A program made the translations under genes and the position numbers. A DNA stretch of 64,000 bases from Clostridia bacterium. Its GTDB lineage: Bacteria; Bacillota; Clostridia; Oscillospirales; Acutalibacteraceae. The notes under the pieces are model-generated. The model was not told the DNA's origin, did not search any database, and saw only the letters and a list, made by a program, of their open reading frames with translations. Shown piece by piece: positions 46,104 to 62,967 of this stretch; within the stretch, counting starts at the first letter, position 1, and each line of letters opens with the position of its first letter. The stretch is from the NCBI GenBank assembly GCA_017452785.1, contig JAFTLT010000006.1:32253-96252 (forward strand). Reading direction: 5' to 3'.

Positions 46104-49100
46104 TTAATAGTGGATAGAACCGCAATAGCATTCCTTATGAACACGGAACAGCTTCCAGAAGAAACGAACTATACTATAGATAAATTTGATAAACCAGTTG
46201 TTCTTATGGCAGAGACATCCGCAATCGTTATCGAATGTTGCACCGCAAACATCGCAAACGAGATCGCCGTTCTTATCTGTGTGTCCTGTTGCATAGAGAA
46301 CTTCTTTCTGCTGAGTGCCGCACTTGCAGGCATAAGCAATATATCCGTTATCTGTGCAGGTAGGCTCTAGTCTGCCTTTATCAATGGTGAATTCGTGTTC
46401 GCCTGTTGAAGGAATAACTACCACACGTCTGCTGATTTCGCTGCCGCATACTAAACAGTTGATTACTGAAGTGTATTTGCCGTTCTTTCCGCAGGTAGCA
46501 GGAGTTTCATTCTCTCTTATTTCATCAGCAGGTGTATGCTCTGCCTTAGCAATGCTCTTGCGCTCTGTGCTGAGAGTCTTGTCGCATACTGTGCAGAATA
46601 CTGTAATTTCGCTTACACCTTCCTTTGTGCAGGTAGGTGCCTCAACAGTAGCGGTTATTGTTTCCTTGGTGTGTCCCTTTGCGGGGATGACCTTCTGAGC
46701 TGTGATCACTGTGCCGCATACCTCACAATGTGTGCCCTCTGTGAGACCTGTTGTTTCACAAGTGGGCTCAACTGCCTTGGTTTCAACCACGCTGTGCTTA
46801 AGAGCAGGAAGAACTATTGTGCGTCTGCTGATTTCTTCACCGCAAACTGAGCAGCTTGTTACGCCGATGCGATAACCGTCAGCCTTGCAGGTTGCTTTGA
46901 CTTCTTCAATAATAACTTCCTTATCGGCTGCATGTTCGAGCTTTTCAATGATCTTGCCTTCTGTGCTGAGTACCTTGCCACATGTCTCGCAGTAGGTAAC
47001 TAAATCATAGTAGCCTTCCTTCTGACAGGTTGCAGGGTCAATATTTTCTTTTCTGGTTGCCTCGATATGTCCTGTTGCGGGGAATTCTATCTGTGCCTCA
47101 AAGACCTCACCGCATACTGAGCAGTAGCTGCCCTGTGAGAAGCCACCCTCTTCACAAGTAGGTGCAAGAGCTTCTTTGATAACAACATTATGACCGAGAA
47201 CTCCGCCTGTTGTTTCACCGCAGACTGAACATGTTGCAGGTGAAGTGCAGGTTGCTGCATCCCACTTATGACCGAGTGCTTCACCTTCGGTTTCGCCGCA
47301 GACTGAGCAGGTTCTGGGTGAATCACAGTCTGCTGCTATCCATGAGTGACCATTTGCATCCACATAGCTGTCTACATAGCTATCACTACATCTTGAACAT
47401 GTGTGAGTTGTATAGCCGTCTTCTGTGCATGTGGGATCTGTTATAACAGCATCATAATCGTGACCGAGTGCTTCACCGTCTGTCGCATCGCAGACTGAGC
47501 AGGTTTTGGGTGAATCACAGTCTGCTGCTATCCATGAGTGACCATTTGCATCCACATAGCTGTCTACATAGCTATCACTACATCTTGAACATGTGTGAGT
47601 TGTATAGCCCTCAGCTGTACATGTGGGATCTGTGACTACTGAGTCGTAGTTGTGGCTGAGCTGAGGAATTTCTTCTGCTGCTGTCTCATAGTCGCAGACT
47701 GTACATTCCTTATGCTTTGAACCTGCATGTGTGCAAGTTGCTTCCTCGTCAATCACATATTCGCCAAGGTTATGATTGCCTGTTGCAGGAATTGTCTTAT
47801 CCTCACTGCTGAGAACTTCTTTACAAACTGAGCAATATGTTACAAGTACATATGAACCGTCTGCACCGCAAGTTGCTTCAACACTGTTTTCTTCTCTTGT
47901 TGCATTTGTGTGACCGAGTGCGTCAACCTTATCATCTGTGTATTTATCACCACAAGCTGTACATGTGTAAGTTGTAAAGCCGTCTTCTGTACATGTGGGA
48001 TCTGTTACTACTGATTCGTAGTTATGGCTGAGCTGAGGAATTTCTTCTGTTGCTGTCTCATAGTCGCAGACTGTACATTCCTTATGCTTTGAACCTGCAT
48101 GTGTGCAAGTTGCTTCCTCGTCAATCACATATTCGCCAAGAGTATGGTTACCTGTTGCAGGAATTGTCTTATCCTCACTGCTGAGAACCTCTTTACAAAC
48201 TGAGCAATATGTTACAAGAACATATGAACCGTCTGCCCCGCAAGTTGCTTCAACTTCATTTTCTCGAACTGCTTCACCTGATGTGTGACCGAATTTTTCA
48301 AGAATATCTGTATAAGCATGTTTGATATCATTCTTACATGTATAGGTTTCGTAACCATCTTCGGTACAAGTTGCATCCTTACGGTCTGTAATTTCATAAT
48401 CGTGTCCAGTTCTGTTTACTTTTGAGCCGATCTGAACAATTTCATTACACTTAGCACAACGCACATCACCGGTATAACCATCAGTTTCACATGTTGCATC
48501 AACTTTATCAGTGGTTGTGGTTCCGTAGCCGGTATGTTCACAAATAAGAGATGAACAACGATCACAACGACCATTATTGTCCTCATCAATATGACCCAGA
48601 GGAGCTATATCGTCTGTGTAGGTATGACTTGCATCATTCTTACATGTGTATGTCATTACACCCTGTTCTGTACATGTGGGTGCTGTTGTTTCTTTGCCTT
48701 CGTAGTCATGGCCTGTTGCAGGAATTACTTCCTGTTTAACAAGAACTTCGCCACAGATATCACAGTGTGAACCTTCTGTAAGACCTGTTTCTTCACACTT
48801 GGGTGCTACTGCTGCATCAGCTACTGCTGTGTGGCCTGTTGCAGGAACAATTTCCTGTGCAACGAGAACCTTATCACATACTGAACAGTGTGAGCCTTCT
48901 GTAAGACCTGTTTCTTCACACTTGGGTGCTACTGCTTCGTCAGTTACTGCTGTGTGGCCTGTTGCTGAACCTTCATCTGCTACTGTATCAGTAACTTCAC
49001 ATCTGTCACACTTTGCAGTCTTTGTGCCGTCTTCTGTGCAGGTTGCATTGCCGTCTGACACATAGTTTGTGAAGCTATGACCGAGTGCAGTACCTGTTGT

Positions 49101-52100
49101 TGTGCCGCAGACAGTACATGTTGCAGGCTTGAGGCAGTCTGCAGCACCATAGCTGTGCGCAACGAGTGCTGAACAAGCATCGCAAAGGCAATCACTGTCT
49201 GAATCTGAATCAGCACAATTTTCTGTTACTACTCTGCCTTCTTCATCTTTGCAAACTGTACATGTCTTGGTGTGTGTACCGTCATTATTAGCAGCCCAAT
49301 CACCATAGCTATGACCGAGTGCATCAACAATATTATCTACATACTGTGAACCGCAATTGCTACATGTGTGGGTAGTGTAACCCTTATCATTACATGTAGG
49401 AGCAGTTACTGCTGATGTGTAATTGTGACCCTTTTTAGTGATAACTACATCTTCAGCAGTTGTTTCAGTTGTTGCAGCTGCATCTTTAAAGAGCTTGCCG
49501 CAAGTTGAACATGTCCAGTATTCGATATTACCGTCAACATCACATGTTTCAGTCTTTGCTTCTGTCTTTGTGAGTGTGTGTGCAGCTGCCACTGTATCTC
49601 TGTCTTCAGTTTTTTCGCAACGTGAGCACTTATATGTTGTGTAACCGTCAACTGTGCATGTGGGTGCTACTGTTTTTACAAATACTGAGAAATCGTGTTT
49701 GAGAGCGTCAACGGTTGTTGTGTCTCTGCTGATTTCATCACCGCAGACTGTACAGTAAACTACGGTATCATATGAGCCGCCATTTTCACAGTCGGGATCA
49801 ACACTGTTTTCTATCACTGCTTCGCCTTTTGTGTGACCGGGAGCAGTAAGAGTCTCTTCCTTGGTTGCAGTACAATAGTCACACTTTGAGTTTTTATAAC
49901 CGTCTTCTGTGCAGGTTGCATCCTTGCTATCTGTTACATTCCACAAGTGAGCTGTTGTTTCGGTATGACCGCATATACAGGTTGCTGTATGGTTGCCATC
50001 GCCGTCATCGGTGTATATTACGCCTGCGCCATAGCATGATTCACCTGCACTAAGTTTATCAACACCGTTAAACTTTGCACCTCGAGCCTCACAGAAATCA
50101 CACTTATAATCATGGAAAGATGTTGAATTTGCTTTAGGCTGAACATCTGTGTTAAATGTATGTGCACCTTCTTCGTATGCTGTGCAATTGTTGCAGGTGC
50201 GTCTATGGGTATCTCCGCCCAGATACTGTGCCCAGTCACCGTATTCGTGATCAAGCATTTTTGTTTCTGTCTGTACTACTGTTACAGTGCCGCAAACTGA
50301 GCACTCCTTACCTTCTGTAAGACCTGTAGATGTGCAGGTTGCTGCCACTGCGGGGATGATTTTTTCTGTGTGGCCGGAAGCAGGAATATCCACCTTTGTT
50401 GTGTAATCACACTTTGAGCAGTACTCATATGCATTCCAACCATCTTCTGTGCATGTGGGTGCTTTTGCTTGTACCTGTGTGAGAGTATGAGCAGCATCTT
50501 TGTAGTTCCGCTTTTCTGTTTCAGCACACTGAGCGCACTTGTAAACATCATAACCCTGCTCTGTGCAAGTAGGAACAACTGTCTCAACAAATACTGTGTA
50601 AGTGTGAGTACCTGTTGCGGGGATTTCTTCAGTATATGTATCACCGCAAGCACATGTGTAAGTCATAACACCCTGCTCTGTGCATGTGGGTGCTTTTGTT
50701 TGTGCTGATGTGTAAGCGTGATCCTTTGCAGGAACTTCTGTCTGTGCCACAAGAACAATGCCGCAAACTGAGCAGTGTGAACCCTCTGTTTTACCGGGTG
50801 TTGTGCAAGTTGCATCTACTGCTGCATCGGTAACTACTGTATGCTCACCGATTGACTCTGTTTCCGTATAAGTTACATCGCCTGTAACAGCTTCGATTGC
50901 AGGCCAAGCAAAGGTATGGTGACCTGCTGCATCGTTATAAGCTGCTGTATTTGCGGGAGCAGTGGGTGTTGTGCCGTAGTCGTATGTTTCTTCTGATACT
51001 GTTGTATCTGCTGCGTTGACAAATTTAACAGTGTACTGGTTGGCTGTCCATGTAGAATAAAGATTTTTTGCGCTTGAAGCACTACATACAGTACCGTCTG
51101 TTACAGCATTTCCCTGAGCATCAACCCAACCTGCAAATGTATAGCCGGTTCTGGTAGGTGTGGGAAGTGCACCATAAGCTGAACCGTAAGTTACCTTTTT
51201 GGATGTCTCATAAGAAACATTATCCGCTACTTTACCTTCTTCATAAACACGGATATTGCTGAAGGACACTGCATTATTTGAGCCGTTAGCATCAACACGG
51301 ATTTGTGCTTTTACAACTTCCGATTTGTCCGGAGCAGTAAAGACAGCATTTTCTTTATCTATGCCGGTAGAAGCGTTAGATGAGTATCTGTTAGTCGGAC
51401 CGTCTGCGAAATCTACCCAAGTGCCGTTTGCATCACAGAAGAAAATGTAAACATCCCAGCCGTCGCCTTCAAAATCTATGTCAATCTTATAGGATTTACC
51501 GGGTTCAACTGCGAAAAAGGGTGAAGCGCTTGTACCTTCATCGACATCGGCATTTGAAGTAAGAGTAAAGCCATTGTCGGTAACATTTGAAATAACACCA
51601 TTACTTGCTGTTGTAGTGTTCCAAGAGCTGAAATCAATAAGGTTATCAAAAGTTACATCATATGTTCTGTATTCAAGAGCTGATTGAGCACTTACGAGAG
51701 CAGTTGCAAGATTGCCAACTGTTGTTGCATCTGAACTATACTGAACATTGCTGCCGGAAGGATTAAGTGCAGCCATATGTCCTCTTGCGGCACTATAGGC
51801 ATTCACAAAGTTTGTCCACGAAGCATCAGTATAAGGAGCACCACCAGCGTTGTAAATTGCATCAGCATTTGAAATAGCAGATATAAGGTCTGTGTACTTT
51901 GGAGTTACAGTAGCAAGATTTGCTGCTGTTGTTTTTGCATTTGAAAGATAAGCACCTACACTTGCTAAATCGTTTGCCCAATTTGAAACTGCTGTTAAAA
52001 TACTACCTGTGGCTGCAAAGCCATAGTTGCTGTAATCAAGATTATAGTTTTGTGCAGCAGTATCAAGGTAACCCAAGGCAGTCTGAGAAGTTGTTGAATA

Positions 52101-53111
52101 AACATAACCGCTGTAATCGGCAAGCGAAATATTCGGGATAATGCTCTTCCAGTTTTCATAGTTGTCTATGTAAGGATGCATATAAACCTGATAAACATAG
52201 CCTTGATTTGCATTGGAGGCGTAGACATTTTCATTTTCTCTATCCGAGTTTTTTGTTACGAGACGAAGGCCTACATCCGCATAGGATGAAAGCGTCGATG
52301 AATCTACACTTGCAATAACAGAAGCATAAGTTGATGCATAATACAACTTTCCGTTGCTGCCAGAAAAGTAACTATTACTACTGCTGGTTGTAGCACTACC
52401 CAACGAAGTTCCTGTTCCATCATAAATCCACTGACCAAAGCCTTCATAGCTTGAGCTTGATGTAGGAGTGGTACCGCCAAGTGTCCAGGTACTTGCAGGT
52501 GTAAATCTGTCTGTATTTAGAAATCTAAAACCTTCAAGGTTTGTATTATTTGCATTTGGATAATAAAACACCTGGAAAGGCACCGTTGATGTTTCACCGC
52601 TAACTATACCGACTACAATATTCTGCATATTCCATACCATTGTCTGATTGTCTCGGCTAACAGTTCTTATACCCGTGTCATATTCAAAATCATAAGGATG
52701 ATAGATAACATTATTAGCATATGCATTAGGCACAGAAGTGCCGTTCTTTTCAGTTACGGTTGTATCTATAAACTTTACAAAAGTGGTTTCGGCATTTACA
52801 GCACTGTTATTAAAAGCTGTTTCCAAGGCTGAAACATAAGTTGAAGCACTTGAGCCGACATAACCGCCATAAGTCACAGCATCATAATATCTTTTTGCAT
52901 TATTATAAGCTGTTGAAAGCTCAGCAAGATTTCCCCAATATCCGACATTGTTAGCATCAAGCCAATATTCGGTATCAGTAATCCACTGCTTGAGTGTGGT
53001 TAAATCTTCAGCCGCCTCAGCCTTCTGAGGTGCAACAAACACCCAGCATGACATAATCATAAGCACTGTCATGATGAGCGATATTGATTTTTTAAAATAG
53101 TGTTTTTTCAT
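46104..53111 (-). CDS. Giant secreted protein with about thirty CxxC repeats
   Basis: 2335 residues. A signal peptide ends at AEA near residue 33. The N-terminal 750 residues hold all-alpha FIVAR-like segments ([17 protein letters not shown]), a carbohydrate-binding-like beta domain ([10 protein letters not shown] to [11 protein letters not shown]) and InlB/Listeria-Bacteroides repeats ([13 protein letters not shown]). Roughly thirty units follow of the form [18 protein letters not shown]...IPATGH, each with two Cys pairs. Several copies are nearly identical in DNA, with offsets of 192 and 372 bases. The last 40 residues are a distinct module: CGCLCHKNN, an aromatic amphipathic helix ([17 protein letters not shown]) and CYCGSIHY. 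A surface adhesin or metal-binding role is inference. There is no LPXTG. Confidence 0.85.
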
Positions 53112-53401: not shown

Positions 53402-53977
53402 TTAAAATTTAACACCTGATACCATATACATTTTTTCGTCAGAAATCATAACATCAATTCTGAAAAATGATGACATCATTTCCGCAAGCTTTTCTTTTGA
53501 CGGAAGAGGGCTTGAAACCTTGCCTGCTTTTTCTGAATGGCACTTCTGCAGCTCCTTTTCGCTCATGCCGTGAGCCACAGTGAGTCTGCCTTTTATTTTA
53601 AGGGCACTGTGCAAATTTTCAAATAAACGCCGAGGCTCATCAAAGTGCGGAAAAGCATTATATATCATTACGGCATCAAACTGCTTTGCAAAATTATAGG
53701 TCTGGGCATCGGCACAAATCACCTGTACGTCCGGAAATTTATCTTTTGCCGCCTTTACCATTTCAGGTGAAATGTCAATGCCCGTCACTTTTACATCACG
53801 GTTTATATAGTCAGGGAAAAGCGCCCCCGTACCGCAAGCAACATCAAGTATATGCACACCCTCTTTGACTTCACCCTTGTTTAATATTATTTCAATTGCT
53901 TCTTCATTACGTATAAGATCTTTGTCCCATTCGGGTGCCATTCTATCAAAAAATGCGATTATTTCTTTTTTATCCAT
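53402..53977 (-). CDS. Class I SAM-dependent methyltransferase
   Basis: 191 residues. The SAM-binding loop is HILDVACGTGALFPDYI (motif I), then VTGIDISPEMVKAA (motif II, acidic end) and FDAVMIYNAFPHFDEP (motif IV). The substrate is not readable; the family is UbiE/MetW-like. It is the last gene of the operon, 2 bases after the acetyl-CoA-synthase-like gene. Its position with corrinoid-like or Ni/Fe-S machinery suggests a link, but a generic methyltransferase is possible. Confidence 0.8.
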   Translation of the reverse strand: MDKKEIIAFFDRMAPEWDKDLIRNEEAIEIILNKGEVKEGVHILDVACGTGALFPDYINRDVKVTGIDISPEMVKAAKDKFPDVQVICADAQTYNFAKQFDAVMIYNAFPHFDEPRRLFENLHSALKIKGRLTVAHGMSEKELQKCHSEKAGKVSSPLPSKEKLAEMMSSFFRIDVMISDEKMYMVSGVKF

Positions 53978-53979
53978 AA

Positions 53980-54675
53980 TTACATTTCCCTCATTGCTGC
54001 ACTTTTAAAATGAAGCTCCTTCATGCCCTCAATTTCGTCGCAGACCGGCTTTAAATTGCAGCTGTCGCAGTCAAACTTCACGCTGTTCATAACATGGTTG
54101 AGGGTTTCGGTTATAGTGTTGTTTTTCTGTGCCAGTGCTTCGAGCTTGCCGTAGTCAGCATCTTCGGCAGTGATATAGATAACTCTTACACCCTTTACGG
54201 CAGGGTTCTCTTTATATTTGTTAATGAGCAGGCTACCGATTTTTCTGAAGGTGATGCCCTTTTTAATTGCAGACTTTGCCACACGCACAGCCTCTTTGTG
54301 AGACCGTGAGGAGGTTCTTATCATATACCCTTCGGGAAAATGATGATATTTGACATATTCAATTTTCCTGATAAGGTTATATGCCTTTTGCTGATCCTGC
54401 TCGTCCTCTATCTGCACAAGTGAAACCCTTGCGAATTTGCGGTTATCACCGATGCTGTCAAGATCATCACCTATCAGGGTTATACCGTCGCTGACAGGCT
54501 CACTCGTCACCAGATTAAAGCCTGTGCCGCCAAGCTCAAAGGCAGTGTCACGCTGCAAAATCACCTGACTGTAGCCCACATCCTGCCACAGCTCATCTGA
54601 GCAGGAGAAATCCTTATACGGCAGCTTTTCTGTCAGAAGAGAAACATCTCTGATTAAAGAGTCAAAAAAATTCAT
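53980..54675 (-). CDS. Acetyl-CoA synthase/CO dehydrogenase beta-like protein (CdhC-like)
   Basis: 231 residues. Motifs FELGGTGFNLVTSEPVSDGI and FARVSLVQIEDEQDQQ resemble the small proteins annotated as carbon monoxide dehydrogenase beta subunit-like in Clostridia. The protein is far shorter than a full ACS and lacks any visible A-cluster region apart from a C-terminal CDSCNLKPVC group, a plausible Fe-S ligand set. Its start overlaps the 52-residue gene's stop by one base. Neighbours encode a CooC-like ATPase and dehydratase subunits. I regard the family call as moderate and the reaction as unknown. Confidence 0.55.
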   Translation of the reverse strand: MNFFDSLIRDVSLLTEKLPYKDFSCSDELWQDVGYSQVILQRDTAFELGGTGFNLVTSEPVSDGITLIGDDLDSIGDNRKFARVSLVQIEDEQDQQKAYNLIRKIEYVKYHHFPEGYMIRTSSRSHKEAVRVAKSAIKKGITFRKIGSLLINKYKENPAVKGVRVIYITAEDADYGKLEALAQKNNTITETLNHVMNSVKFDCDSCNLKPVCDEIEGMKELHFKSAAMREM

Positions 54676-54833
54676 TACAGCTTTTTATCCCTTTTCATTT
54701 TGTCATAGCGTTTTTTCCACAGCCAGTCATAAACTATTCTCACAAGCTTCATATCAAGGTTAAACCAATAAATTGCAAATGTCAGAATAAACAAGCAAAG
54801 TATAACTGCAAGTATAATTAAAACAACGTCCAT
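54675..54833 (-). CDS. 52-residue membrane peptide inside the dehydratase operon
   Basis: 52 residues. One N-terminal membrane helix (VVLIILAVILCLFILTFAIYW) is followed by a basic, aromatic tail (VYDWLWKKRYDKMKRDKK). The ATG lies one base after the activator's stop, and its own stop overlaps the next start as TAATG. Such exact packing makes a real gene likely. It could anchor the cytoplasmic enzymes to the membrane, as inference. Confidence 0.7.
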   Translation of the reverse strand: MDVVLIILAVILCLFILTFAIYWFNLDMKLVRIVYDWLWKKRYDKMKRDKKL

Positions 54834-54834
54834 A

Positions 54835-55635
54835 TCAGTTCACCTTGCTGAGACCTTTCTGTCTTGCGTACTCTGCCGCACCGAGGGCACCCATAAGCTG
54901 AGGGTCGGTTTTCAGCTCAACAACCTTGATTTTCAGCACCTTTTCAATAGCAGCCTTAAGACCGTCATTTTTTGCACAGCCACCTGTGAGAGTGATGCTG
55001 TCTGTTGCACCTGCTTTTTTAGCCATAACGAAGCATCTTTTTGCAACTGCAAGCTGAATGCCCGCTGCAATTTCATCCATAGGCTTGCCCTCACCAACAA
55101 GTGAGATAACTTCACTTTCAGCAAAAACAGTGCACTGTGCCGTGATGGGAATTGTGTTTTTTGCACCAAGAGACAGCTTTGAAAACTCAGGAAGAGTCAT
55201 TTCAAAAGCATTAGCCATAGCTTCGTAAAATCTGCCCGTACCTGCAGCACATTTATCATTCATAGCAAAGTTTTTAACTGTGCCGTCAGTGTCAATTGAG
55301 ATACCCTTAACGTCCTGACCGCCAATATCAATAATTGCCTTAACCTCAGGGTTTGTTACATGAACACCCATAGCATGGCAGCTGATTTCTGATATATTTT
55401 CATCAGCAAAAGGAACCTTGTTTCTGCCGTAGCCGGTGCCGATAAGATAACTGATATCCTTTGCTGACTCAAGACCTTCAACCTGAGCCACAGCATCACC
55501 TAAAGCGATTTCAGCACTTGCCACAGGGTTAATTTTACTTCTGTTGGTAACATTGGCAACCATTTTGCCGTTTTCATCTAAAATAACGCATTTTGTGTAG
55601 GTTGAGCCTACATCGCATCCACCGAAATATTTCAT
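54835..55635 (-). CDS. 2-hydroxyacyl-CoA dehydratase activator ATPase (HgdC/BadF type)
   Basis: 266 residues from the ATG at 55635, chosen because AAAGGAG lies 9 bases upstream. It has an actin/hexokinase-type ATPase fold: GGCDVGSTYTKCVILD, IDIGGQDVKGISID, and SITLTGGCAKNDGL. Cysteines in NDKCAAGTGRF and in the GGC motif match the two ligands per subunit for the bridging 4Fe-4S cluster of a homodimer. It uses ATP to drive an electron into the dehydratase, a radical mechanism. It directly follows the dehydratase subunits. Confidence 0.9.
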   Translation of the reverse strand: MKYFGGCDVGSTYTKCVILDENGKMVANVTNRSKINPVASAEIALGDAVAQVEGLESAKDISYLIGTGYGRNKVPFADENISEISCHAMGVHVTNPEVKAIIDIGGQDVKGISIDTDGTVKNFAMNDKCAAGTGRFYEAMANAFEMTLPEFSKLSLGAKNTIPITAQCTVFAESEVISLVGEGKPMDEIAAGIQLAVAKRCFVMAKKAGATDSITLTGGCAKNDGLKAAIEKVLKIKVVELKTDPQLMGALGAAEYARQKGLSKVN

Positions 55636-55649
55636 AGTTTTAATCTCCT

Positions 55650-57179
55650 TTACCAAGCTAAATCGTCTTCAAAATCTACAAGTGAGGGATCCAAGGGCTC
55701 CTCCTGAAGAACTGTCTGCATATATTTGTTAACCTGCTCACGCATATCTCGTCTTGATATGGTTCTCGGATCCATAAGGTCCTGCTTGACCCAGATGAAG
55801 TTGATGTTTCTTTCTCTTGCCTGATCGTCAAATATACCTGTCAGACCGTCCATACCCTTGCAGGAAATCTGGTCATACATAATAACTGTGTCAGCGTTAT
55901 ATTCTTCCACAATTCTCCACAGCTCATCAACAACATGACGGTAACCGCCCTTGGTGTGCTTACGCATTATAGAGCGCTGATAGGTTTTTGCAAGGTCTTT
56001 AAGAGACTGCTCTTTATCCTCTGTGTCAATTTCAAGATATGAAATCATTGTTTCCATATCCATAACTACATTCATGCCCCAGCAGTTTTCAAGCCAATTT
56101 GCAAAGGATGTGTAGTAGTTTGCAGGACAGCTCCACACAACAGCTCTATGGCGCATTTCCTTTGATACGGGAGTTTTCTTTTCATATGCCTTCATCATTA
56201 TCTTGTTAACCTTTTCGTCAACCTTGAGGAATTTCTCATTTGAGCCGCCCGAAAGATTGAAATAGAAAATTCTGTAAAGCCAGAAGGCTGCACCTGTCAT
56301 CTGAGGATAGGGAGTTTTGTTGATATCCCATTTTTGACGCTCATATTCAAGCTGCTTATTATAGTCCTTCATTCTTGAGAAGTAGACATCCCAATCGAAT
56401 TTCTCACCTGTCTGCTGCTCAATAAACTCAATGAGCGCCTTGATTTCGTCAACAGCATATTCCTGAACATCATCACCGTCATAGCGAAGGGGTACACCAA
56501 AACAGTGTGTTGGCAGATTAAGTCTTCTGTCAAGGAAGGATGAATTCATAATCGAACCGTCGCAGGGCATATTTGTGCCTATCATGCAGCAGCCCATTTT
56601 CGGATAATCGTCTTCAATTGCAACGCCGGCCTCAGCGCTGGGCAAAGGGCAAACGTCGGCGGGTACACCAAAGCTCTCTGTCACCTCAAGATAAGGCGGT
56701 GTGATTTGCTGGTCAACCATTGAAGACAGGAAAATAGGCAATGTCTGCAGCGGCATGGGAATGAGGTTGGGAAAGCCTGTGAAAACCTCGTTAGGTACTA
56801 TTTCATCCATAAGCACAATCTTTTTTGACAGCTTGTTTCCCGGATTGATTTTTTCATCTGCACGCAGTGAAATATTTATCAGCTTTGTGGTGTGCTTGAC
56901 TATCATATTATAGTGGAGATGTGCTATGCGAAGATGTGAGCCTCTCAGACCTGCAACATGTCTGTCAACAAAAGACGGTGCCGAAAGATATGATGCCATC
57001 CAGCGGTAACGCCAGATGCCCTTCACTGTTGAAACAGGAGCCTTAAGCACCATTTTTATCATATCTTTCCATGTCACAAGCCAGCGATAATAGTCATACA
57101 TTGTGTCTTTGAAGCCACGCCACTCTCTGTGCTTGAGTATAGCAGTGCGTTCTTTATAAAGATTGCCGTAATTATCCAT
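55650..57179 (-). CDS. 2-hydroxyacyl-CoA dehydratase-family subunit, large
   Basis: 509 residues from the ATG at 57179, which overlaps the previous gene by 8 bases. Longer starts lie inside the previous gene. Family features include LIPMPLQTLPIFLSSM, the CPLPSAEAGVAIEDDYPKMGCCMIGTNMPCDGS loop with clustered cysteines, SCPANYYTSFANWLENCWG, and IMYDQISCKGMDGLTG near the C-terminus. These match the HgdB/BcrC-type fold that binds a 4Fe-4S cluster. The substrate is not readable, and a dehydratase, benzoyl-CoA-reductase or double-cubane role are all possible. Confidence 0.8.
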   Translation of the reverse strand: MDNYGNLYKERTAILKHREWRGFKDTMYDYYRWLVTWKDMIKMVLKAPVSTVKGIWRYRWMASYLSAPSFVDRHVAGLRGSHLRIAHLHYNMIVKHTTKLINISLRADEKINPGNKLSKKIVLMDEIVPNEVFTGFPNLIPMPLQTLPIFLSSMVDQQITPPYLEVTESFGVPADVCPLPSAEAGVAIEDDYPKMGCCMIGTNMPCDGSIMNSSFLDRRLNLPTHCFGVPLRYDGDDVQEYAVDEIKALIEFIEQQTGEKFDWDVYFSRMKDYNKQLEYERQKWDINKTPYPQMTGAAFWLYRIFYFNLSGGSNEKFLKVDEKVNKIMMKAYEKKTPVSKEMRHRAVVWSCPANYYTSFANWLENCWGMNVVMDMETMISYLEIDTEDKEQSLKDLAKTYQRSIMRKHTKGGYRHVVDELWRIVEEYNADTVIMYDQISCKGMDGLTGIFDDQARERNINFIWVKQDLMDPRTISRRDMREQVNKYMQTVLQEEPLDPSLVDFEDDLAW

Positions 57180-58377
57180 TTTCTTTTGCCTGCCTCTCTC
57201 TTTGTATCTTTTTGATTTCAAGGCTCTCAACAAAAGCCTGCACTCTGGTGCGAAGCTGTCCTGAAGCTGAAGCAGTATACTGTCTGTCAACAGCCGCAGT
57301 CGGCACACCGTAGTCGTTACTCATAACATAAGATGCCAGAGCTCTCTCATAGCCCCAATATTCGCAGAATTTAAGCTGCTCATACATAACACCGTCTGCG
57401 TGGTACTCCTCAACAAGCTTCTTTACATAGTCACGTCTTTCCTGCACCTTTTCGTGGCTCATATATCTGGGGCACTGACTAGTTCTGAGATAGTGAAGAC
57501 AAATCTGTGTCAGCACATCCTCGCCCTCTTTGATAACAATTTCCTCTCTGCCGGGCAGTGCACCGAAGCAGTATCTGTCAGCAACAACCAGTGCTCCGCT
57601 GTCTTCAATAAGTGAGGTGAAATCAGGGTCATCCATTTCTGAGCCTACAACCACAATTTTTGCTCTGTAGTTCTTTTTGGCATCAGGCTCTCTTGTTTTA
57701 AGCTCCTCAGCCGTTTCACGCAGGGCAGGGAGTATAAGTGACTTGGGGCAACAGTATGTAATGAGGCTGAGAATATGATATTCATATCCCGTAATGCGTG
57801 GATTGTCTTCCTTACGGTAGTTGCCTATTTCTGTCATAAGTCGGCAGACCTCATTATGCTCCTCAACAGCCTTTAAAAGAGCTTCATCGGAAGTATCAAC
57901 ACCGTAAACCTCACTGAGTTTATCAAGAATTTTCAGTCTTGTCTGCTTGACATAGTGTTTAACTGTGTGCTGCTGAAGTTTAAAAGGCATATCAAGGAAT
58001 GTAACAAAAAACTTTTCTTCTGCAGCAAGATCAAGAAGCTCAAAATGCTCTGCTGTTCTGTTCATTTCTGAGCAGGTTTCTGAAGCTAAAAAGGCATTAA
58101 GGAAATTGTAGCCACCCTCAATGGCTCTTTCGAGTATAGCCTTAGAATAACCGCAAAGGAAATTACTCATATAATAGGTTGCAATGTCCATTGAGCCCGT
58201 TCTCGGTGCACGCAGTCTGACCGAAAAGCAGTTGCCGCAGTTGAGCAGAACCTCAGGAATATGATAGCAGGTGTAACCTAAAGCAATGCCGCCGTATGCC
58301 TTTGCCTTTTTAACAAGGTCGTTGTTGGCATCCAGCAGAAGTTTTTCAAATTCATAAAGATGTTTAAGATCTTTCAT
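57172..58377 (-). CDS. 2-hydroxyacyl-CoA dehydratase-family subunit, small
   Basis: 401 residues. Motifs include IALGYTCYHIPEVLLNCGNCFSVRLRAPRTGS (N-terminal cysteines as cluster ligands), AFLASETCSEMNRTAEHFELLD, and LKFCEYWGYERALASYV near the end. These are the HgdA-like pattern. It pairs with the larger subunit, whose start overlaps its stop. An AAGGAG site lies before the ATG, 11 bases after the CooC-like gene. Confidence 0.8.
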   Translation of the reverse strand: MKDLKHLYEFEKLLLDANNDLVKKAKAYGGIALGYTCYHIPEVLLNCGNCFSVRLRAPRTGSMDIATYYMSNFLCGYSKAILERAIEGGYNFLNAFLASETCSEMNRTAEHFELLDLAAEEKFFVTFLDMPFKLQQHTVKHYVKQTRLKILDKLSEVYGVDTSDEALLKAVEEHNEVCRLMTEIGNYRKEDNPRITGYEYHILSLITYCCPKSLILPALRETAEELKTREPDAKKNYRAKIVVVGSEMDDPDFTSLIEDSGALVVADRYCFGALPGREEIVIKEGEDVLTQICLHYLRTSQCPRYMSHEKVQERRDYVKKLVEEYHADGVMYEQLKFCEYWGYERALASYVMSNDYGVPTAAVDRQYTASASGQLRTRVQAFVESLEIKKIQRERQAKENG

Positions 58378-58388
58378 AGCCTTCTCCT

Positions 58389-59153
58389 TTATAAAATATC
58401 AAGTTCTTTAAGAGCCTTTCTTGCACCCTCAACCACATTTGAGTCATCGGGAAGCTTTGTTATATCCTTTCCCTCAATATCATAAATGGCAAGGTTTTTA
58501 TCGTTTTCAATATATGACAGAACGGGAATACCGTTTGTATTTATATGCTCAATAACACTTGTGTCGGGCAGTCTGTTGACAATGGCACCGATTTTCTTAT
58601 ACATAACCAACTCATCTGCAACACTCTTTATAGTTGAAATAACCTGAGTGCCCTTTTTGCTTGCATCTGTTATAAGCAGAAGGTGTGTTACCTTTTCCAT
58701 AACTCTGCGGTTAATCTGCTCAACACCCGCTTCACCGTCAATAACCACATAATCAAAATCAGCTGATAAAAGGCTGATAACCTCTTTTAAATAAGAATTG
58801 ATTTTGCAGTAACAGCCTGCACTTTCGGGTCTGCCGACAGCAATAAAAGCAAACCCGTCTGTTTCAACAAGTGCATCAAATATCTTATATCTTGCATCTC
58901 CCAAAAGCTCAACAGCGGCTTTTGTGTTGCCATCCTCAACAGTTGCCACTATTTCTTTTCTGATATCGTCAATTGTTGTTTCAATCTCAATGCCCAGTGC
59001 AGTTGAAAGCCCCACTGCCGGGTCAGCGTCAATAGCCAATATCTTCTTATCCGGGTACGCCTGAACTAGCAGCTTGACTATAGCAGCAGAAATTGAGGTT
59101 TTGCCGACTCCGCCTTTTCCGGAAAGAGCAATAATTGTTGCATTATTATCCAT
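58389..59153 (-). CDS. CooC-like MinD/ParA-type ATPase
   Basis: 254 residues. Walker A is the deviant ALSGKGGVGKTS at about 9-20. IDADPAVGLSTALG follows, as in CooC-type nickel-insertion ATPases, then FDYVVIDGEAGVEQINRRV and IVNRLPDTSVIEHIN. A CGRPESAGCYC stretch (here VGRPESAGCYCKINS) matches the C-x-C nickel site of CooC. In CO dehydrogenase maturation CooC loads nickel. Here it heads the dehydratase operon, and no CO dehydrogenase catalytic gene is present in the window. AAGGAG precedes the ATG. Confidence 0.8.
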   Translation of the reverse strand: MDNNATIIALSGKGGVGKTSISAAIVKLLVQAYPDKKILAIDADPAVGLSTALGIEIETTIDDIRKEIVATVEDGNTKAAVELLGDARYKIFDALVETDGFAFIAVGRPESAGCYCKINSYLKEVISLLSADFDYVVIDGEAGVEQINRRVMEKVTHLLLITDASKKGTQVISTIKSVADELVMYKKIGAIVNRLPDTSVIEHINTNGIPVLSYIENDKNLAIYDIEGKDITKLPDDSNVVEGARKALKELDIL

Positions 59154-59334: not shown

Positions 59335-62300
59335 TTAGAATTTGAACCAGCCGGCAATCATAGCAAAGAAATCTTTAATTGCCTTTACAATTCTCTGAAT
59401 CAGGCTCATAGACTCGTCAACATCGGGCGCCTCAACGGGAATACCCAGTGCACCGATAAGAAGATATTTATCGGCAACAACTCTGACATAGCCGTTCTCA
59501 TCGGGTGTCATTGCTTTTCCGTTAACATAGAACGTGAAGGGGTCGCCCACCAGATCTCTGGCTTTTATGATAACTTCTGTTCCGTGCTCAACCTCTAAGT
59601 GTGAGTTGCCGTATACGGGGAAGAAGCTTTTTCCGCCGTCAAGTGAAACATTATACCAGCCGATATGCTCTGTTCGGCCGAAAACAATATAATGCTTGGT
59701 GTCATAAGCTGAATCTGCATAAACGGTAATCACCACAAATCCGTAAATAGCAGGGTTAGCAGCCGAGCTGATTTTTATCTTAGCCTTACCTGCACCAATA
59801 GCTTTTACATTTCCGTCAGCATCAAGCTCAACCACAGAGCTGCCTTCTTCGACAGTATAATTAAGCTTCTTATTTGATGCACTGCCGTTTACATATGCTT
59901 CCAGAATTGCTTCTTCGCCTAAAACCATAGTGAAGTCTTTTGGCACCACTATACTTGTTGCTGCACCGGGCATCATAGTCCATCTGCCCACAATAACAAC
60001 ATCGTTATTGATACTAAACTTTCCGTCTGAAATATTAGCATCAGTTGTTGTCCAGCCTGAGAATTCATAACCGATAAATGAAGGTACCGCAGCAACTGTT
60101 ACCTCTGAGCCTTCTTCATAGGTCTTTTCAGCGGGCAGTTCAGGCACATTTACAGGTATATCACCCTTATATTTATAAGTAACCTTGTAATAATTTATTA
60201 TCTTTTCCCACTTACCAACGAACTCAACATCATTGTAAATATCAAACTTACCGTCTGCAACTGTTACGTCCTTTGTCTCCCAACCTGTGAAGATATAGCC
60301 GTCAAGTGTGGGATTTGCTTCAACTGTAACTGTTGAGCCTTCTTCATAAGTCTTTTCTGTGGGCACTTCGGGAGCATTTGTGGGAACGTTTCCTTCGTAC
60401 TTATAGGTTACATCATAGTAGTTGACGATCTTTTCCCACTTGCCGACGAACTCAACATCATTGTAAATATCAAACTTACCGTCTGCAACTGTTACGTCCT
60501 TTGTCTCCCAACCTGTGAAGATATAGCCGTCAAGTGTGAGGGTTGCTTCAACTGTAACTGTTGTGCCCTCTTCATAGGTCTTTTCTGTGGGTACTTCGGG
60601 AGCATTTGCAGGAACTTCGCCTTCGTACTTATAAGTTACATCGTAGTAGTTGATGATCTTTTCCCATGAGCCGACAAAGTGCACATCGTTATAAATGTTA
60701 AACTTGCCGTCCTTGATATCAGCATTATCTTTTGTTGACCAACCGGAGAAAATATAGCCTTCTGCTGCAGAATCAGCTTCAACTGTAGCCTCTTCACCGC
60801 TGTTATATTTACCGCCATCGGGAGCCTTGACGCTGTCAGGAATAACATCACCGATAAATTCATATGTAACCTTATACATTACAACTGTAATTGTAATTGT
60901 CTCTGTAATATCAGGGTTATCCTTTGATGTAACAGTGATTGTAGCTGTACCCTCACCAACCGGCGTAACTTTGCCGTACTCGTCAACCTTCACAACATTT
61001 TCATTATCTGAAGTATATTCAAGCTCTTTCACCGAAGCAGTGTCAGGATTAACAGTAACATTAAGCTGAAGCTCTTCGCCTATTGCTATTTCAGTGTCTT
61101 CATTCTCAATAACAATATCTTCAACAGGGATATTAACCTTAACTATAATACTGTCTTTCTTTGTGGGCTCATCCTCTGAAGTTACAGTGATTGTGGTTGT
61201 GCCATCACCCACGGCTGTGATATTTCCGTTTTCATCAACGGTTACTATGCTGTCATCACCGCTTTCCCAGATGAGCTTCTTATTAGTGGCATCATCGGGA
61301 TTTACAGTGACATTAAGCTGCTCTGTTTCATTAATATAAAGGATAGTCTTTTCTTTTTCGAGAACTACCTCACTAACAGGCTTTTTAACAGTAACGGTAA
61401 TTGTATCCTTCTTTGTCGGGTCATCCTTTGAAGACACTGTAATTGTGGTTGTACCCTCACCCACAGCTTTGATGTTGCCGTTATCATCAACGATTACAAC
61501 ATTTTCATCGCCTGATTCATATAAAACATCTTTAATCGTTGCATCTTCAGGATTTACTGTGATTTCAAGCTTAATTTCGTCACTTTCATTAAGAGTGACA
61601 TTGCCTGTATTAATAACAACACCTGAAACAGGCTTTTTGAAATAGCCGTAAAGAGTAACATCTTTTTCAGGCATTATGAAATCGCCACCGGTAGTTACAA
61701 CATCCTGTGTTGTCCAACCCACAAATGCATAACCCTGCACTTGCGGTGCGTCACTGACTAAAATATTTTCGCCTGCTTTATATGCTTTTGTCGCAGGTAC
61801 TTCCGGAGCCTCGGCAGGAACCTCGCCTGTGTACACATAATAAACATTATAAGCTCTTGACCACTCACCTGTGAAAAGAACATCATCAGTTAAAGTAAAT
61901 TCGCCGTCTGTTACAGTCACATCGTCTGTTGACCAGCCTGAGAAGGTATAGCCATCGGGCACTTCCGGTGCGGCTTCAACAGATACATTTTCGTTCTTTT
62001 CATAATATAAGGTATTGGGAGCTTCCACGCCTTCAGGAACATCCCCGGTAAATTCGTATTCAACCTTTAATCTGATTTCAAGGTTTCCTTCAGGCTTTGC
62101 CACTGCATAATAAGCTGTTTCCTGAGGATTTTTATCATATTCATCCTTGCCGCCTCTGATAGCATAGCAGCAATTGAAAACGCTTTCGTTAAGGTTGGCT
62201 ATGGACTCATTTGTCCAACCGCTGCCAATATAGATATTTGTCAGTTCTCCTGCTCTGTAGAACATAAAGTACATTGTGGTGACTTTTGACGTGTCAAAGC

Positions 62301-62967
62301 TTCTCAGGTCAACTTCCTTAAGGGCAACACAGTTATAGAACATATAAGACATATCCGTGACATTACTTGTGTCCCAGCCGTGAAGGCTGACATACTGAAG
62401 CATTTTGCAGTTATAGAATAGATTTTTCATGCTTGTTGCCGATGAGGTATCAAGAGCACCTAAATCAAGAGTTTCAAGAGAGGAACAGTTGCTGAACCAA
62501 TCTTTAAAGCTTTTTACCTTTCCCGTATGAAAATTTTCCAAACCGCTTACAACCTCAAGCTTCTGAAAAGCGTAAAACATATGAGTTGTGTCTTCGTGAG
62601 CCTGAACACCGCCTTCACCGCCGACATATATATCATATCTGTCAGCGCCTGCAGCAACAGTTTCAACTTCATTTTTCTGCGCCCATGCCATAACACTTCC
62701 GTCACCGTTATAAGAGACATCCCATGAAGCTACTGTATCAGCTGAAGCAATAGCATTATTGTCAATATAGCCAAGGAAGGTTACAGAATAGACCTTGGAA
62801 TAGTATGCAACTGCATGGTAATCCCCTGCAGAAGAAACGTTATAGACCTGCATAACAGGGCAATCTTCCTCAGCAGCTGTGGCAAATAAAGCCGTTGGTA
62901 ACATCGCAAACATCATAAGCACCGACAGCATCAGCGCCAATAATCTTTTGCATTTTGAATTTTTCAT
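59335..62967 (-). CDS. Surface protein with BspA-type LRR, Ig-like and InlB repeats
   Basis: 1210 residues. A signal peptide (KRLLALMLSVLMMFAMLPTALF) ends near ATAAEE. Residues about 150-270 are BspA/DUF285 leucine-rich repeats (LDTSSATSMKNLFYNC, WDTSNVTDMSYMFYNC, FDTSKVTTMYFMFY). Then come InlB/Listeria-Bacteroides repeats (GYTFSGWSTDDVTVTDGEF), three Big_2-type Ig domains (NVTLNESDEIKLEITVNPEDATIK, AVGEGTTTITVSSKDDP) and at least four more InlB-like repeats of 76 residues, two of them almost identical in DNA. The final 20 residues form an amphipathic helix (IQRIVKAIKDFFAMIAGWFKF). A cell-adhesion role is inferred. No LPXTG is seen. Confidence 0.85.
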   Translation of the reverse strand: MKNSKCKRLLALMLSVLMMFAMLPTALFATAAEEDCPVMQVYNVSSAGDYHAVAYYSKVYSVTFLGYIDNNAIASADTVASWDVSYNGDGSVMAWAQKNEVETVAAGADRYDIYVGGEGGVQAHEDTTHMFYAFQKLEVVSGLENFHTGKVKSFKDWFSNCSSLETLDLGALDTSSATSMKNLFYNCKMLQYVSLHGWDTSNVTDMSYMFYNCVALKEVDLRSFDTSKVTTMYFMFYRAGELTNIYIGSGWTNESIANLNESVFNCCYAIRGGKDEYDKNPQETAYYAVAKPEGNLEIRLKVEYEFTGDVPEGVEAPNTLYYEKNENVSVEAAPEVPDGYTFSGWSTDDVTVTDGEFTLTDDVLFTGEWSRAYNVYYVYTGEVPAEAPEVPATKAYKAGENILVSDAPQVQGYAFVGWTTQDVVTTGGDFIMPEKDVTLYGYFKKPVSGVVINTGNVTLNESDEIKLEITVNPEDATIKDVLYESGDENVVIVDDNGNIKAVGEGTTTITVSSKDDPTKKDTITVTVKKPVSEVVLEKEKTILYINETEQLNVTVNPDDATNKKLIWESGDDSIVTVDENGNITAVGDGTTTITVTSEDEPTKKDSIIVKVNIPVEDIVIENEDTEIAIGEELQLNVTVNPDTASVKELEYTSDNENVVKVDEYGKVTPVGEGTATITVTSKDNPDITETITITVVMYKVTYEFIGDVIPDSVKAPDGGKYNSGEEATVEADSAAEGYIFSGWSTKDNADIKDGKFNIYNDVHFVGSWEKIINYYDVTYKYEGEVPANAPEVPTEKTYEEGTTVTVEATLTLDGYIFTGWETKDVTVADGKFDIYNDVEFVGKWEKIVNYYDVTYKYEGNVPTNAPEVPTEKTYEEGSTVTVEANPTLDGYIFTGWETKDVTVADGKFDIYNDVEFVGKWEKIINYYKVTYKYKGDIPVNVPELPAEKTYEEGSEVTVAAVPSFIGYEFSGWTTTDANISDGKFSINNDVVIVGRWTMMPGAATSIVVPKDFTMVLGEEAILEAYVNGSASNKKLNYTVEEGSSVVELDADGNVKAIGAGKAKIKISSAANPAIYGFVVITVYADSAYDTKHYIVFGRTEHIGWYNVSLDGGKSFFPVYGNSHLEVEHGTEVIIKARDLVGDPFTFYVNGKAMTPDENGYVRVVADKYLLIGALGIPVEAPDVDESMSLIQRIVKAIKDFFAMIAGWFKF

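Follow-up and report, generated by a model that had tools for sequence, protein, structure and literature searches.

What could a CooC-like ATPase, two proteins of the HGD-D fold with an ATPase activator, and a relative of acetyl-CoA synthase (ACS) do together in one cell? This question is raised by an operon on the minus strand (53402-59153) of a 64,000-nucleotide stretch of a Clostridia bacterium (contig JAFTLT010000006.1; this whole stretch is called the window below). From gene order, predicted folds and relatives in other genomes, we tentatively answer, and give the answer a little less than an even chance, that six of its proteins would form an ATP-driven, membrane-tethered Fe-S reductase system of the benzoyl-CoA-reductase/double-cubane family, and that its AcsF/CooC-like ATPase probably loads nickel into an ACS-related helper serving one or several reductase pairs. 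The seven open reading frames (ORFs) of the operon lie where an earlier note on the window had placed them, spaced 1-14 bases apart or overlapping by 1-8 bases:

59153-58389, minus strand: CooC/AcsF-like ATPase, 254 amino acids (aa), P-loop GKGGVGKT, C114-x-C116; 11-base gap to HgdB1
58377-57172, minus strand: HgdB1, 401 aa, predicted double-cubane subunit of the reductase pair (PF06050, 307 bits); 8-base overlap with HgdB2
57179-55650, minus strand: HgdB2, 509 aa, second reductase subunit, N-terminal extension, three invariant cysteines; 14-base gap to the activator gene
55635-54835, minus strand: BcrAD/HgdC-type ATPase activator, 266 aa, ATG start; 1-base gap to the peptide gene
54833-54675, minus strand: 52-aa peptide, one predicted transmembrane helix, F-N-L-D-M-K motif; 1-base overlap with the CdhC-like gene
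54675-53980, minus strand: CdhC-like protein of 231 aa (PF03598), whose ACS middle domain precedes C203-x2-C206-x5-C212; 2-base gap to the methyltransferase gene
53977-53402, minus strand: class I S-adenosylmethionine (SAM) methyltransferase, 191 aa, lineage-specific seventh gene (PF13649, 71.9 bits)

The family assignments of the earlier note (a MinD/CooC-type ATPase, two HGD-D proteins, a BcrAD activator, a CdhC protein of PF03598 and a SAM methyltransferase) all hold. For the activator, an alternative TTG start at 55656 is likewise open, and family-model searches gave no known family over cut-off for the 52-aa peptide.

The conserved unit has six genes

A profile of the CdhC-like protein detected 478 encoding stretches in species-representative contigs, of which the best 80 were kept for locus comparisons, so that closer relatives carry more weight. 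Where 5.6 kb or more lay upstream of the CdhC-like gene, 53 of 59 loci showed the order CooC-HgdB1-HgdB2-activator-CdhC-like on one strand. Five of the six exceptions (L037, L060, L071, L077, L081) do not have the reductase genes directly upstream, and HgdB2 is encoded elsewhere in all five genomes; in the sixth (L082), HgdB2 and the activator are each broken into two open frames. Between the activator and CdhC-like genes, 71 of 74 loci encode a peptide (46-70 aa) containing one strongly hydrophobic segment. In 10 of the 45 closest loci (L009-L053) the methyltransferase gene comes immediately after, on the same strand, and in 5 it lies nearby on the opposite one; L054-L088 gave no match to it. 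Since it was found in close relatives only, the true unit comprises six genes. The single seven-gene unit proposed in the earlier note therefore stands as a layout, with a core order that recurs in its relatives beyond chance, but not as the conserved set.

The 231-aa protein was present in 8 of 200 genomes of the host's family. A class-wide sample of 391 genomes gave 10 with a match, seven of them with the stand-alone form; the other three matches are weak and fall, as canonical ACS would, within larger open frames (537, 716 and 716 aa). The seven genomes with the stand-alone protein are exactly the seven of this sample that carry the HgdB2 subfamily at E < 1e-100, where its copies reach 4e-119 or better and the next HGD-D protein stands at 9e-24. 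HgdB2 was also found in 53 of 53 genomes carrying the CdhC-like gene. These results support a joint conserved system of the reductase pair with its activator, a CooC-like ATPase and a genuine ACS relative; the lack of co-occurrence that the earlier note had named as speaking against such a system was not what we found. Its spread over few and distant families suggests transfer or frequent loss.

One probable helper set often accompanies several reductase pairs

Copy numbers were counted in 53 genomes, namely 13 of the 14 positives of the family and class samples (G206 left out) and 40 of 41 related genomes (G592 left out because its contig equals that of G175 in length). The results showed 104 HgdB2 matches, 1-8 per genome and a few of them partial, together with 55 CdhC-like matches and 54 activator matches, some of the latter partial. 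Several HgdB2 matches occur in 22 genomes, and 20 of these, with 2-8 HgdB2 matches, have one CdhC-like gene. Extra reductase pairs with the peptide, and with no adjoining ATPase, activator or CdhC-like gene, were seen in L056, L069, L083, L104 and L145. That one CdhC-like and one activator gene often stand alongside several pairs is our main argument that the CdhC-like protein belongs to a shared helper, rather than being a catalytic partner or a substrate-specific subunit.

HgdB1 keeps the double-cubane ligands

The HGD-D fold was found in both HgdB1 and HgdB2. After length limits, the alignments held 66 of 72 hits for HgdB1, 71 of 80 for HgdB2 and 69 of 75 for the activator, each plus the window's own sequence. 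HgdB1 cysteines C37, C75, C102, C270, C302 and C338 align with C36, C73, C100, C263, C293 and C327 of BzdN, which the accessible part of PMC11971306 names as its six double-cubane ligands, and all six are kept in 67/67 rows. In HgdB2, C177, C206 and C440 are invariant (72/72 rows) and align with cysteines of MbdO and BzdO, with a one-residue ambiguity in the placing of C206 and with the stretch that pairs C440 with BzdO C380 not significant by itself. The catalytic His131 of BzdO is not matched in HgdB2, where the aligned place holds Gly or Ser (S209 in 72/72 rows), and the region of BzdO Glu65 is not alignable with HgdB2. The activator scored 211.6 bits with TIGR00241 (cut-off 125.4) and keeps C129 and C168 in 70/70 rows; in BcrAD/HgdC-type activators, the cysteines hold the cluster.

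Because HgdB1 keeps all six double-cubane ligands, the pair, read as dehydratases in the earlier note, looks like a reductase and not a dehydratase; yet the HgdB2 fold is about equally near a dehydratase subunit, with the highest structural Z of its model to HadB (29.1, versus 27.9 to BzdO). The curated cut-offs of the named BCR, HAD and DCCP equivalogs were not reached, the best scores being those with NF040772 (HgdB1 137 and HgdB2 54 of 350 bits). With the class I benzoyl-CoA reductase of the BZD type (BzdN/BzdO; PDB 8s02) the operon shares two HGD-D subunits, six plus three cluster cysteines and an ATPase activator, whereas its pair lies far under the equivalog cut-offs, has no His at the BzdO His131 place and carries the N-terminal extension of HgdB2, and the operon adds the ATPase, the CdhC-like protein and the membrane peptide. 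DCCP with its reductase (PDB 6eno, 7yzm) has in common with it the double-cubane ligands found in HgdB1 and accounts for the top NCBIfam scores of both subunits; it differs in that those scores stay below the cut-off and that the operon has two different subunits, one alone keeping the six ligands, plus extra genes.

The CdhC-like protein lacks the nickel-binding half of ACS

Comparison of its predicted structure with ACS showed that the CdhC-like protein has the fold of the ACS middle domain, so that the unrelated fold considered in the earlier note did not appear. Its C-x2-C-x5-C motif is invariant (82/82 rows). The protein ends 19 residues past the third cysteine with no C-x-C there, and the ACS catalytic domain with its Ni-binding C-G-C is absent. 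Compared with the ACS beta subunit (AcsB/CdhC), it has C-x5-C where ACS has C-x8-C to the third cysteine, and it lacks the fourth cysteine as well as the C-G-C and the catalytic domain. Without the C-terminal Ni-binding domain it cannot be the ordinary ACS partner that had been proposed. A selenocysteine in this protein was considered and rejected, as the TGA reported for G419 falls outside the protein once the frame is read.

The ATPase resembles nickel-insertion ATPases, and most hosts have no CODH or ACS client

The best PDB relative of the ATPase is CooC (3kje, E 5e-16), and its deviant P-loop and CXC motif, aligned with those of 3kje, are kept in 64/64 rows. Against two acetogen ACS loci it scored 120-121 bits to the ATPases at the position that we take to be acsF, and 86-90 bits to those at the presumed cooC position. 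ATPases of the acsF position insert nickel. The operon ATPase thus shares the deviant P-loop and the CXC motif with the AcsF/CooC nickel-insertion ATPases and is nearer by score to the AcsF-position ones, whereas its identity is 31-34% to two AcsF-position and 33-35% to two CooC-position proteins, and neither a CODH nor an ACS client was detected in its host. Both the CXC motif and the kinship to AcsF suggest a nickel role of the operon. Where the reductase genes do not come between (L037, L060, L071, L087), the ATPase gene lies directly before the CdhC-like gene.

A second operon of the HgdB type, with a CooC-like ATPase carrying CXC, two activators and adjoining acyl-CoA-type genes, is present in a complete genome (G382, L146:7770-14473). 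CooC-like ATPases may go with such HgdB-type reductases more widely.

No CODH catalytic subunit (PF03063) was detected in the host's own genome, which is 89.8% complete. CODH exceeded the cut-off in 2 of 41 related genomes, and G621 has two partial pieces (231 and 87 bits) below it. For most hosts we therefore rejected the idea that a CODH encoded elsewhere is what the CooC-like ATPase serves. The ACS catalytic domain was found in 2 of the 53 genomes, both of one genus with several ACS genes each, which look like acetogens. With 51 of 53 genomes free of the ACS catalytic domain and 39 of 41 without CODH over cut-off, the system is not CODH/ACS.

How the system may work

On the gene order, folds, ligands, co-occurrence and copy numbers observed, we infer the electron flow, membrane anchoring, nickel use and maturation role as follows. 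Using ATP hydrolysis, the activator would drive electrons of low potential into HgdB1 and its [8Fe-9S] double cubane; from there they would reach HgdB2, whose open-site [4Fe-4S] cluster would reduce the substrate. The small peptide may tether the pair to the membrane. Together, the CooC-like ATPase and the CdhC-like protein would form a common module by which a metal centre, either nickel or an Fe-S cluster, is loaded or repaired for the cell's reductase pairs, and in many Lachnospiraceae-type loci a neighbouring ene-reductase flavoenzyme may act in the same pathway.

Several observations weigh against a nickel-loading helper. The HgdB-type operon of G382 has a CooC-like ATPase but no CdhC-like gene, so the ATPase may act on the reductase directly, which ties it to the reductase and not to the ACS relative. 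In two genomes (G587 and G597), two CdhC-like genes accompany two HgdB2, and no activator over the threshold was found in G614 and G623. The cysteine-bearing tail of the CdhC-like structure model is of low confidence. Finally, BzdNO has been made heterologously and the accessible part of PMC11971306 does not mention a helper of this kind; a standard double cubane may therefore do without one.

A different task for the same protein is possible, though we consider it doubtful: the CdhC-like protein could be a shared electron carrier or docking protein, whose three-cysteine Fe-S cluster feeds the activator or the pairs, the ATPase maturing only that cluster. Such a carrier would fit the one CdhC-like gene and usually one activator gene that a genome has, however many pairs it encodes. 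It would also fit the invariance of the three cysteines and the core order, in which the CdhC-like gene neighbours those of the activator and the peptide. However, the nearest relatives of the ATPase sit at the presumed acsF position of ACS loci, the site of nickel-inserting ATPases, and three invariant cysteines are one fewer than the usual [4Fe-4S] ligand set.

It is quite improbable that the CdhC-like protein and the reductase pair stand in for CODH/ACS as an alternative enzyme handling CO/CO2 or acetyl-CoA. The kinship to ACS is real, most hosts are without CODH and ACS, and acetogenic labelling without CODH/ACS genes in a Lachnospiraceae organism (accessible part of PMC7000372) may offer an analogy, but the Ni-binding C-G-C and the whole ACS catalytic domain are missing, several HgdB2 copies stand to one CdhC-like gene, and two acetogen-type genomes carry the operon plus canonical ACS. 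An ordinary 2-hydroxyacyl-CoA dehydratase of amino-acid fermentation with the remaining genes as passengers is very unlikely too, for although superfamily, activator class and the HadB likeness of the HgdB2 model agree with it, HgdB1 keeps the six cysteines of a double cubane that dehydratases have lost (according to the accessible part of PMC11971306), the scores lie under the dehydratase cut-offs, and the CooC-like and CdhC-like genes are conserved and not passengers.

We recognised no published description of this gene set in the literature searched, most subscription papers lying outside reach. The accessible part of PMC10134865 reports an additional ACS beta subunit in an Acetobacterium metagenome-assembled genome, which may be a relative of the CdhC-like protein. 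As far as their accessible parts go, PMC7306483 concerns an ordinary DCCP, and PMC10418091 and PMC13101534 are unrelated to the gene set.

Neighbouring genes, variant loci and flanks

Of 22 genomes, a sample of 19 more distant and three Lachnospiraceae-type genomes with close relatives outside it, 8 have a gene for an ene-reductase flavoenzyme (PF00724) next to the operon. Ene-reductase matches number 0-8 per genome (60 rows in total, some of them gene pieces), chance adjacency is roughly estimated at well under one genome, and in G611 and G621 the adjoining ene-reductase is the genome's sole one. This adjacency suggests a reductive pathway with an unsaturated intermediate. Beside the window's own operon, no ene-reductase was found among the listed ORFs. 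The clustered neighbours that reach ten of the 80 loci are the ene-reductase flavoenzyme (10) and a transporter-like protein (10; judged by eye), followed by variants of the core peptide (7). A fixed substrate pathway was considered and rejected, as the neighbours of the best 80 loci and the single contexts gave no common substrate.

In L102 (1133-5080 and 14470-18692), genes for a tungsten-type AOR, an iron alcohol dehydrogenase, a 2-oxoacid oxidoreductase-like protein (by eye) and a CoA ligase flank the operon. In L103 (10733-14018), a 972-aa FAD/Fe-S oxidoreductase and the nickel chaperone HypA are encoded directly after the CdhC-like gene; this oxidoreductase may be a relative of IsrA, the putative isoprene reductase that the accessible part of PMC10134865 describes. 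Two loci of Acetobacterium-type genomes, L112 (8348-13204) and L113, have the divergent, rearranged order HgdB1-HgdB2-activator-CdhC-like-ATPase with O-demethylase-like, methyltransferase and ene-reductase genes adjoining; L113 also carries an insertion, transposase-like by eye, that separates the activator gene from HgdB2.

Around the window's operon, two signals and two very long proteins, surface-type as judged by eye, were found:

59335-62967, minus strand: 1210-aa protein with repeated segments
59213-59185, minus strand: promoter-like site TTGAAA-17-TATAAT with TG ahead of the second hexamer (consensus scan, 11/12 positions), about 31 bases upstream of the first gene
53380-53342, minus strand: terminator-like hairpin of 18 pairs followed by a T tract (pattern scan; readable in the sequence)
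46104-53111, minus strand: 2335-aa protein with many Cys-rich repeats

Both signals are consensus or pattern matches whose scan score says nothing on function; the scans of the region gave 18 promoter-like sites versus 13.4 in shuffles, and 9 terminator-like sites versus 5.1.

Meaning for the double-cubane superfamily

The six-gene set occurs in many anaerobic Clostridia; the CdhC-like family is common, and many titles among the best 80 loci name herbivore gut samples. To our knowledge, the ACS middle domain has been seen solely in enzymes that make or break acetyl-CoA; here it persists without the Ni-binding half and in association with reductases of a class known for Birch-type chemistry. 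A bolder version of the metal-loading idea, which we hold to be rather unlikely, is that the ACS fragment is a nickel-loaded maturase that, with the AcsF-like ATPase, builds or arms a nickel-containing active site in membrane-anchored, ATP-driven reductases; these would be the first nickel-dependent members of the BCR/double-cubane group, and a cell could have as many as eight HgdB2 paralogues acting on different substrates. If metal loading is indeed the task of the helper, the double-cubane superfamily would gain a nickel-maturation branch, and this would explain how one cell runs several such reductases from one helper set.

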